A DNA stretch of 64,000 bases from Mesorhizobium sp. 1M-11 (lineage in GTDB: Bacteria; Pseudomonadota; Alphaproteobacteria; Rhizobiales; Rhizobiaceae): the NCBI RefSeq assembly GCF_001303895.1, contig NZ_LJSD01000075.1, forward strand, positions 193,501 to 257,500, written 5' to 3'. How positions within the stretch are numbered: the stretch's first letter is position 1; each line of letters opens with the position of its first letter. The position numbers and the translations under genes were made by a program. The notes below the pieces were generated by a model that did no database searches, had not been told where the DNA came from, and was given only the letters and a program-made list of their open reading frames with translations. This document shows positions 19,190 to 33,149 of this stretch, piece after piece.

Positions 19190-19202
19190 CAGGACATCGA
19201 TC

Positions 19203-19255
19203 CGTGGTGATTTGGCCGGTCGGCTTGCAGCCACGTTAAATAAGTCGCTAAAGGG
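19203..19255 (+). ncRNA. SAM-II riboswitch
   Basis: Cis-acting S-adenosylmethionine sensor in the metA leader. The sequence carries the SAM-II consensus in order: P1 stem CGTGG (19203-19207) with CCACG (19231-19235), the GGTGATTTG block, GGCTTGCAGCCAC, GTTAAATAAG and GTCGCTAAAGG at the 3' end, where the pseudoknot forms. SAM-II elements in alphaproteobacteria precede metA, metX and related genes. An intrinsic terminator follows directly, pointing to transcriptional control: high SAM, less metA. Confidence 0.92.
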
Positions 19256-19270
19256 CCGTTTGCGATCCGT

Positions 19271-19307
19271 AAACCGGCTTTGCGACAGCAATGCCGGTTT
19301 TGTTTTT
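19271..19307 (+). terminator. Intrinsic terminator in metA leader
   Basis: Stem AAACCGGC (19271-19278) with GCCGGTTT (19293-19300), then TTGTTTTTT. It lies between the SAM-II element and the metA GTG, so it is the probable expression platform. It also shows that the ATG at 19291, inside the 3' arm, is not the true start. Confidence 0.75.
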
Positions 19308-31910: not shown

Positions 31911-31939
31911 CTTGACGCACCGGCCAAATGCCACTATGG
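31911..31939 (+). promoter_or_regulatory. Promoter of rpmB
   Basis: CTTGAC (31911-31916), a 17-base spacer and CTATGG (31934-31939) match the rhizobial housekeeping consensus CTTGAC-N17-CTATAT well. It is 94 bases before the rpmB start, leaving a leader of about 85 bases. Confidence 0.75.
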
Positions 31940-32032
31940 AACGCCAACTTTTTCCTTGAGGCCGCCGAAAGCACCGCGCGCCATTTGGCGCGGCTCGAAG
32001 GTTTGGCCCGGTATGAACTGAAGGTAGCAAAA

Positions 32033-32329
32033 ATGTCCCGCGCTTGCGAACTCACCGGCAAAGCCGTCCAGACCGGTAACAATGTGAGCCACGCCAACAA
32101 CAAGACCCGGCGTCGCTTCCTGCCGAACCTGGTCAATGTCACGCTGATCTCGGAAGCGCTGAACCAGAACGTTCGCCTGCGCATTTCGGCCAACGCGCTG
32201 CGTTCGGTCGAGCACCGCGGCGGCCTCGACGCCTTCCTGGCCAAGGCCAGCGAGAAGGAGCTGTCGCAGCGCGCTCGCCTGCTGAAGAAGCAGATCGCCA
32301 AGAAGACCGCCGAGCAGGCCGCGGCCTGA
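32033..32329 (+). CDS. rpmB: Ribosomal protein bL28
   Basis: Large-subunit ribosomal protein, 98 residues, the alphaproteobacterial length. It begins [20 protein letters not shown] and continues with [21 protein letters not shown] and the basic/alanine-rich C-terminal helix. The ATG at 32033 is the standard start. A consensus promoter lies upstream and two hairpins lie downstream, before the preQ1-type element of the next gene. Confidence 0.96.
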
Positions 32330-32336
32330 TTGCTTT

Positions 32337-32400
32337 CAGGCGGGGGACGACCGCCTGAGCATCGGATTGGCCAGCGCATAGCTTGAACCGTCCGATGCTC
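32337..32400 (+). other. Two adjacent hairpins after rpmB
   Basis: CAGGCGG (32337-32343) pairs with CCGCCTG (32351-32357). Directly after, GAGCATCGGA (32357-32366) pairs perfectly with TCCGATGCTC (32391-32400). No T-run follows either. They could be a Rho-linked terminator or mRNA-stabilising structure for rpmB, or a dispersed repeat of the GAGCATCGGA type. Confidence 0.5.
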
Positions 32401-32439
32401 GAATGAAGGATGCGCCGCCCGTCCCGGCCAGGCGCTCCG

Positions 32440-32470
32440 CTGGTTCCATTACCCAGGATAAAAAAATGCG
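32440..32470 (+). ncRNA. preQ1-I riboswitch candidate overlapping the start codon
   Basis: The pattern aligns with preQ1 class I: P1 CTGG (32440-32443) with CCAG (32453-32456); loop opening TTC; a CCC whose first C (32452) is the residue that pairs with preQ1; then ATAAAAAA, identical to the A-rich strand of the B. subtilis queC element; then ATG. The loop bases CAT (32447-32449) would pair with ATG (32466-32468) to form P2, so ligand binding would hide the start codon. The downstream gene transports queuosine precursors, the expected target. Confidence 0.72.
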
Positions 32471-33149
32471 TTTCTTTTCGCAGTATTTGCCCTTCGTGAT
32501 CGCCATGGCGCTTGTCGTCGTGGCCTCGAACATCCTTGTCCAGTTCCCGATGCAGGGACAGGTCGGGGTGCTGTCGCTGGCCGATATCCTGACCTGGGGC
32601 GCCTTCACCTATCCTTTCGCCTTCCTCGTCACGGATCTCGCCAATCGTCGCTACGGACCGGCTGTGGCGCGTCGGATCGTCTTCGTCGGCTTCATGGCTG
32701 CCGTGATTTGCTCCATCGTGGCACCGCCACTTCTGTTCCGTGCCGGCTTAATCGAATTCGACACTGCCGCCGCCCGCCTGGTGCGTATCGCATGCGCTTC
32801 CGGTGCCGCCTTCCTCACCGCGCAGCTTCTGGATGTCACCGTGTTCAACTGGCTGCGTCGCCAGAGCTGGTGGCGCGCACCGATCTTCGGCACGCTGGTG
32901 GGCTCGGTGTTCGATACGCTGATCTTCTTCTCGATCGCCTTTTCCGCCGCTTTCGCCTTCATCGGCCCTGACGACGCTTTCGCGTTGGAGAATGCGCCAC
33001 TGCTCGGCATATTCCCTGTGGAAACCATGCGCTGGGTGTCCTGGGCTTTGGGCGACCTGTCGGTGAAGCTGATCATCGCCGTCTTCGCGCTGATCCCCTA
33101 CCGCCTGATCGCCGCACGCTGGAGCCAGCCGGCAACGGTCCAGCCTTGA
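32466..33149 (+). CDS. yhhQ: Queuosine precursor transporter (YhhQ/VUT family)
   Basis: Inner-membrane importer of preQ0/preQ1 for the queuosine modification of tRNA. 227 residues with six helices; the family blocks are VVVASNILVQ, DILTWGAFTYPFAFLVTDLANRRYG, the aromatic/basic RRQSWWRAPIFGTLVGSVFDT and the late WVSWALGDLSVKLIIAVFALIPYR. The ATG at 32466 lies at the end of the preQ1-type element, with AGGA of the P1/J region acting as Shine-Dalgarno. The TTG start of the next gene overlaps its stop. Confidence 0.88.
   Translation: MRFFSQYLPFVIAMALVVVASNILVQFPMQGQVGVLSLADILTWGAFTYPFAFLVTDLANRRYGPAVARRIVFVGFMAAVICSIVAPPLLFRAGLIEFDTAAARLVRIACASGAAFLTAQLLDVTVFNWLRRQSWWRAPIFGTLVGSVFDTLIFFSIAFSAAFAFIGPDDAFALENAPLLGIFPVETMRWVSWALGDLSVKLIIAVFALIPYRLIAARWSQPATVQP

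Follow-up and report, generated by a model that had tools for sequence, protein, structure and literature searches.

The type III class of preQ1-I riboswitches was reportedly defined in a paper of 2014. In Bacillus subtilis the preQ1-I loop starts with UUC, as does that of the element described here, but it is longer and its P2 is formed by CUA and UAG. The solved type III structure is that of the Escherichia coli yhhQ aptamer (Schroeder 2023, PMC10622847). In E. coli K-12 the yhhQ leader reads ATTGGG-TTCCCTCAC-CCCAAT, with a tail ending in AAAAAGG and then TACAAT-ATG, and the residue numbers quoted from that paper fit this leader. As described there, C14 is the specificity base and C8 forms a triple with A28-U11. 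In Kiliushik 2024 (PMC11625349), the consensus that is given occludes AAGG.

The stretch of DNA analysed (hereafter the window) consists of 64,000 nucleotides from Mesorhizobium sp. 1M-11. It contains an rpmB ORF (31928-32329) followed by a 110-base spacer and then by the element, CTGGTTCCATTACCCAGGATAAAAAAATGC, at 32440-32469. As read in the sequence, the ATG within the element is the start of a 227-aa transporter ORF, yhhQ/QPTR (32466-33149, + strand). Its product scored 103.9 bits with TIGR00697 (cut-off 50.95) and 96.3 bits with Pfam Vut_1, which bears out the earlier naming of the gene as that of a queuosine-precursor transporter. In Rhizobium sp. NLR16a the annotated yhhQ start is the ATG of the element, and there too rpmB lies upstream. 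The p3 replicon of that strain (NZ_CP072868), called a plasmid, has rpmB, dxr, cobS/cobT and hemA aboard and is perhaps a chromosomal fragment or a chromid. In the window, the spacer between rpmB and the element holds two perfect inverted repeats (32336-32400; 8 and 10 bases per arm, no T-run), and a similar one was seen at another locus (L222). At the other end of yhhQ, a TTG overlapping the stop codon (TTGA, 33146-33149) could serve as the start of the following ORF (224 aa, spermidine-synthase-like), which suggests coupled translation of the two genes.

The base order of the element is CTGG (from 32440), TTC (32444), CAT (32447), T (32450), A (32451), C (32452), CCAG (32453), GATAAAAAA (32457) and ATG (32466). 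All the strings on which the original prediction relied (CTGG/CCAG, TTC, CAT, CCC and ATG) are present, with five bases between TTC and CCC. This order is shown to provide the strands for a hairpin P1 (CUGG, 32440-32443, with CCAG, 32453-32456, + strand as for all that follow), a loop UUCCAUNAC, an A-rich tail and a CAU complementary to the AUG. The loop would comprise L1, UUC (32444-32446, positions 5-7 of the element; UGC or UGG in relatives), the 5' strand of P2, i.e. the anti-start-codon CAU (32447-32449), and L2 together with the predicted ligand-reading C (UAC, 32450-32452; C at 32452), which aligns with C14 of E. coli; this C was fixed by the search patterns, so that its invariance is no independent count. 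Aligned by eye to the description of the E. coli structure, the A-rich tail GAUAAAAAA (32457-32465) is the putative L3, and its final A (32465) the predicted ligand-contacting residue, A27 in E. coli. The 3' strand of P2 would be the start codon itself (AUG, 32466-32468), followed by a C (32469) which is unpaired with C7 in this TTC version. A likely Shine-Dalgarno (SD) sequence, AGGA (32455-32458), lies half within P1.

The hairpin alone is of ordinary stability (z -0.46; 56 of 200 shuffles fold equally well), and a folding program without pseudoknot prediction preferred another fold for 32430-32480. The sequence is nevertheless far from common: a degenerate 29-mer derived from relatives, with up to three mismatches allowed, matched once in the window and not at all in 100 shuffles. 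The window's own genome has one strong copy, since a covariance model (whose building rows included the window's own sequence) found a single strong site of 52.3 bits (E 7e-12), the runner-up being at 17.1 bits. Out of 33 distinct elements, model R1 used the 26 that are 30 bases long.

To follow the element among relatives, 151 genomes were drawn evenly from the GTDB family of the window; 143 had a YhhQ match and 140 were examined (G086, G185 and G194 were left out). The element precedes yhhQ in 131 of the 140, with one yhhQ per genome, and is absent in nine. All 131 have the ATG and at least five A before it (the pattern required four); AGGA is present in 111, the remaining ones varying at positions 18-19. 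In a larger set of 139 plus 80 loci, some genomes being counted twice, 214 of the 219 loci fitted a loose element pattern before yhhQ, 213 with CTGG/CCAG and all with the ATG and with CAT, where the pattern permitted C[AG][TC]. A set of 158 distinct stretches showed no variation at 22 of the first 29 positions, many of them fixed by the selecting pattern, and had A at position 12 in 150 cases; the 25 bases upstream of the element, on which no pattern constraint bore, reached only 0.02-0.81 bits per position. It is therefore confirmed that the window has a real, conserved element before yhhQ.

Outside the family no further case of the element came to light in the order, class and phylum samples. 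Strong matches in 199 genomes of the order were confined to the family; the best of the weaker ones (28.4 bits) was in a genome without YhhQ match (G393), another, of 23.7 bits in G249, lay on a different contig from yhhQ, and inspection by eye of 130 bases upstream of yhhQ at 24 loci from other families of the order revealed no element. Among 289 genomes of the class, 21 matches were obtained besides our own, none above 26.6 bits. Loci were available for 19 of them, and YhhQ was matched in none of the flanks examined; the nine viewed as alignments all either deviated in the loop (shorter, longer or altered) or lacked the tail. A pattern search of 398 phylum genomes placed 11 of 11 family matches at yhhQ and none of the eight matches found elsewhere; the reversed-pattern control gave five matches, against these eight. 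In viral contigs the hairpin pattern matched 18 times, never with an A-run and ATG behind it, phages gave no match with the one loop version searched, and a plasmid collection had the TGG version in two records and the TTC version in none. Before yhhQ in two small genomes of one genus, G170 and G066 (1.5 and 1.1 Mb), apparently decayed remnants of the element were noticed by eye.

Three loop versions occur among the 131 family elements: TTC (67), TGG (53) and TGC (11). The base following the ATG was G in 11/11 TGC elements (8/8 in-frame ones), C in 53/53 TGG elements, and A (28), C (25) or T (14) but never G in the 67 TTC elements; the baseline given by 42 annotated Rhizobium genes, a small set, was A 24, G 7, C 7 and T 4. 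The second amino acid varied (11 kinds in the TTC group, 4 in the TGC and 4 in the TGG group), and because it is unconserved, selection acts on the nucleotide. The comparison shows that the putative pseudoknot gains a covarying fourth pair, between position 7 and the base after the AUG, in the UGC and UGG loops. For pair counts, 27 of 35 distinct elements were taken. In the 12 of them with G at position 6 all pairs form, a score reached by none of 500 shuffles, and sliding the partner by one to three columns lowered pairing from 100% to 25-48%. When all 27 were considered, of which 15 (the TTC ones) lack the fourth pair, 5 of 500 shuffles reached the observed score. P1 was paired in 99.1% of cells, with G4-C14 in 27/27; one element has a broken pair, and P1 shows no covariation within the family. 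The three CAU:AUG pairs never vary in the 27 elements, hence no covariation there either. The covariation proposed as a check in the original prediction, for P1 and for the CAT/ATG pair, was consequently not seen within the family, and it is the base next to the ATG that covaries. The proposed CAT/ATG pseudoknot itself is supported and is extended by this base in two of the three loop versions, the window staying at three pairs.

The independence of these changes was assessed on a quickly built YhhQ tree without bootstrap, whose 140 rows were translated in the YhhQ-match frame and stripped of their N-terminal residues. On this tree there are 12 changes of loop state; the TGC label changes eight times, and supported branches require at least four of these changes, whereas the label TGG changes four times among element bearers. 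Within the TTC rows, the base after the ATG changes 26 times and never to G. Supported independent pairs differing in TGC were four out of four with G after the ATG and none against (sign test p 0.125), or three out of three without the out-of-frame members described below; for TGG there were two supported pairs, of which on average 1.5 agreed and none disagreed. Independent support for the covariation thus comes from few events, with no counter-example found.

The gene content of the family was examined for the queuosine pathway. QueA was found in 149 of the 151 genomes, and the two that lack it (G066, which has one of the decayed-looking remnants, and G150) are both among the nine element-less ones; the chance of this is 36/9730, about 0.004 (by hand, ignoring kinship). 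These two facts make the function fit that of a preQ1 switch. Of the 151 genomes, 85 have a QueF match above the Pfam cut-off, or 84 by a stricter count (a 27.9-bit match in G150 was counted as absent). A convincing QueC, defined by E<1e-15 since most matches above the Pfam cut-off were short and partial, was found in 47; the window's genome has QueF and no convincing QueC. Among the 131 element bearers, 36 have QueF and QueC, 37 QueF alone and 58 neither, the corresponding figures for the nine element-less genomes being three with both and six with neither. In G183, G065 and G152, QueF, QueC and QueA are all present and yet there is no element, so that its absence is not due to gene loss alone. 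In the 140 genomes a convincing QueC never occurs without QueF. It seems that de novo synthesis was lost stepwise, QueC and then QueF, while YhhQ and QueA persisted. A genome with QueA and without QueF needs external preQ1, which makes preQ1 the compound common to all bearers. According to PMC11570991, Bartonella species encode only tgt of the pathway and are predicted to be queuine salvagers; G150 probably belongs to this genus.

The reading we favour, with a probability of about 0.84, is that the element is a translational preQ1 riboswitch, built as an H-type preQ1-I pseudoknot nearest to type III, in which the start codon takes the place of the SD sequence in P2. As originally proposed, a preQ1 architecture of class I in which the pseudoknot involves the start codon is the best reading of the locus; the identity of the ligand and the switching itself are inferred from homology. 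In such a switch preQ1 would pair with the C at 32452 and be contacted by the A before the AUG. Its binding would stack P1 on P2, with the AUG locked in P2 and half of the AGGA in P1; when preQ1 is plentiful, initiation would be blocked, YhhQ synthesis would stop and import would fall. When preQ1 is lacking, a P2 of three or four pairs would be weak and open, the A-rich tail would be free and the ribosome could initiate.

At least in its UGC and UGG versions, the same start-codon pseudoknot might instead sense preQ0, queuine or a base resembling guanine. These two deviate from the UU motif of type III: the residue equivalent to E. coli U7, which according to PMC10622847 contacts the ligand-reading A27, is replaced by G in 64 of the 131 elements. 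Relatives of YhhQ are moreover described, in PMC11570991, as transporters of preQ0, preQ1 or queuine. With QueF present and a convincing QueC missing, the window's genome could be importing preQ0 as its precursor. By the thresholds used here, however, preQ0 would be useless to the 58 bearers without QueF and QueC, and QueA, kept in all 131 bearers, points to preQ1 as the common compound. Each QueF/QueC state also includes all three loop versions. A ligand other than preQ1 appears unlikely to us.

Two further explanations were weighed. The extreme conservation, the AGGA, the A-rich spacer and the ordinary stability of a short hairpin would also suit a conserved initiation hairpin or the site of a repressor protein, without a metabolite pocket; but such a site leaves unexplained why base 7 changes together with the first base of codon 2 while the second amino acid varies, as well as the likeness to the aptamer that E. 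coli has before this gene, and we give it very little credit. Less probable still, indeed close to nil, is an upstream ORF encoding W-F-H-H/Y/N-P-G-stop, whose NAY codons, read by queuosine tRNAs, would sense the Q status. Many members do contain the frame TGG TTC CAT NAC CCA GGA TAA. An upstream start codon is in this frame at 64 of 131 loci, no excess over the two other frames (63 and 71), the second codon is missing in eight ACC and five CTC members, and a base is inserted in five; the upstream ORF was rejected on these grounds.

The putative start-codon preQ1 switch has a few members of unusual layout. In 128 of the 131 family elements the ATG shares the reading frame of the YhhQ match; the three others (in G161, G083 and G099) are all of the TGC version and all devoid of AGGA, and they have an in-frame ATG 13 bases downstream of the element's ATG, with another at 7 in G099. 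Their AUGG is still complementary to the loop, and AUGGA may be the SD sequence of the later ATG. These genomes could illustrate a move from start-codon to ribosome-site sequestration. The idea that members without AGGA initiate in an SD-less manner was dropped, as three of the four members with C for G after CCAG proved to be the out-of-frame ones. We regard it as an even bet that the family possesses a separate preQ1-I subtype in which the initiation codon roofs the pocket, codon 2 is under selection for RNA structure and the P2 strand can switch roles. In this subtype the A of the AUG would be in the ceiling of the pocket, with the preceding A touching preQ1, and the platform could slip between hiding the start codon and hiding the ribosome site, as in these three genomes.

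In the open-access literature searched, no preQ1 switch was found described in Rhizobiaceae, nor one that pairs with a start codon; a term search of Corbino 2005, on alpha-proteobacterial motifs, gave no mention of yhhQ. The 2014 type III set may already include an alpha-proteobacterial member. The sequence evidence indicates a real, conserved start-codon variant of the preQ1-I riboswitch, undescribed within that literature. RF00522 (PreQ1), the Rfam family for class I preQ1 aptamers, matches neither the element nor the E. coli yhhQ leader: around the element, which does not reach the gathering cut-off of 39 bits, nothing of preQ1 type matched at E<=10, nor did anything at E<=10 in the K-12 leader; RF00522 was above cut-off in one of 14 control genomes. 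The Rfam hit that had been proposed as a check was therefore not obtained, but because the E. coli leader is equally unmatched this silence is without weight and refutes nothing. Such switches would consequently be under-counted, as the model misses the E. coli leader and the relatives described here. At gathering scores, Rfam found in the window only a SAM-II riboswitch and one tRNA; the former (SAM_alpha, 19194-19271, + strand, 79.3 bits) is directly 5' of an ORF at 19291, presumably MetA. If our reading is true, a change of one base pair turned an expression platform that hides the ribosome-binding site, as in E. coli, into one that hides the start codon; selection for RNA structure acts inside a coding sequence, at codon 2; and preQ1 control extends to numerous bacteria associated with soil and plants, a large group in which many members, judging from their gene content, depend on imported precursor.

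How does the element compare with the known systems? It resembles SAM-II and other direct-occlusion riboswitches in that the 3' strand of an H-type pseudoknot lies in the ribosome-binding site; in the scheme given in PMC10907184 the occluded strand is the ribosome-binding site, whereas here it would be the start codon. With the type II preQ1-I riboswitch of B. subtilis it shares the H-type pseudoknot and the A-rich L3 (PMC11625349), but the B. subtilis switch controls transcription termination, unlike the translational control proposed here. The likeness to B. subtilis put forward in the original prediction therefore holds for class I membership and not for the nearest relative, which is the type III aptamer of E. 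coli yhhQ; the short loop is explained by this kinship.

Between the E. coli yhhQ leader and the element of the window, the common features are the UU after P1, the AC before the P1 3' strand, the oligo-A before P2 and a three-pair P2, and the gene is the same; the K-12 loop TTCCCTCAC and that of the window, TTCCATNAC, have one fixed difference. With the numbering of PMC10622847, E. coli U6 U7 C8 C9 C10 U11 N12 A13 C14 correspond to U5 U6 C7 C8 A9 U10 N11 A12 C13 here, and A26 A27 A28 G29 G30 to A25 A26 A27 U28 G29. The sole differing pair among these residues is C10-G29, replaced by A9-U28, which turns AAGG into AAUG: P2 pairs the SD sequence AAGG, six bases 5' of the ATG, in E. coli, and would pair AAUG, i.e. 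the start codon, in the element. L3 is shorter in the element, versions with a UGC or UGG loop have a fourth pair that reaches codon 2, and P1 has two compensatory pair differences by eye (U-A for G-C and C-G for U-A). By analogy with E. coli C8, a C7 kept for a similar triple would explain why TTC elements avoid G after the ATG, and the loops with G6 would spend position 7 on the fourth pair instead. As for the features of type III, the G-C pair closing P1 below the pocket is found in 27/27 distinct elements, UU after the P1 5' strand in the window and in 67 of 131 elements (UG in the 64 others) and AC before the P1 3' strand in the window; the A-run lies directly before P2, and the element before yhhQ. 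Where type III occludes AAGG, the predicted P2 strand here is AAUG, which serves as start codon in the window as well as in 128 of 131 family elements; for this reason the element is placed beside type III and not within it. From these sequence comparisons we conclude that it is a putative preQ1-I variant of the start-codon type, adjacent to type III.
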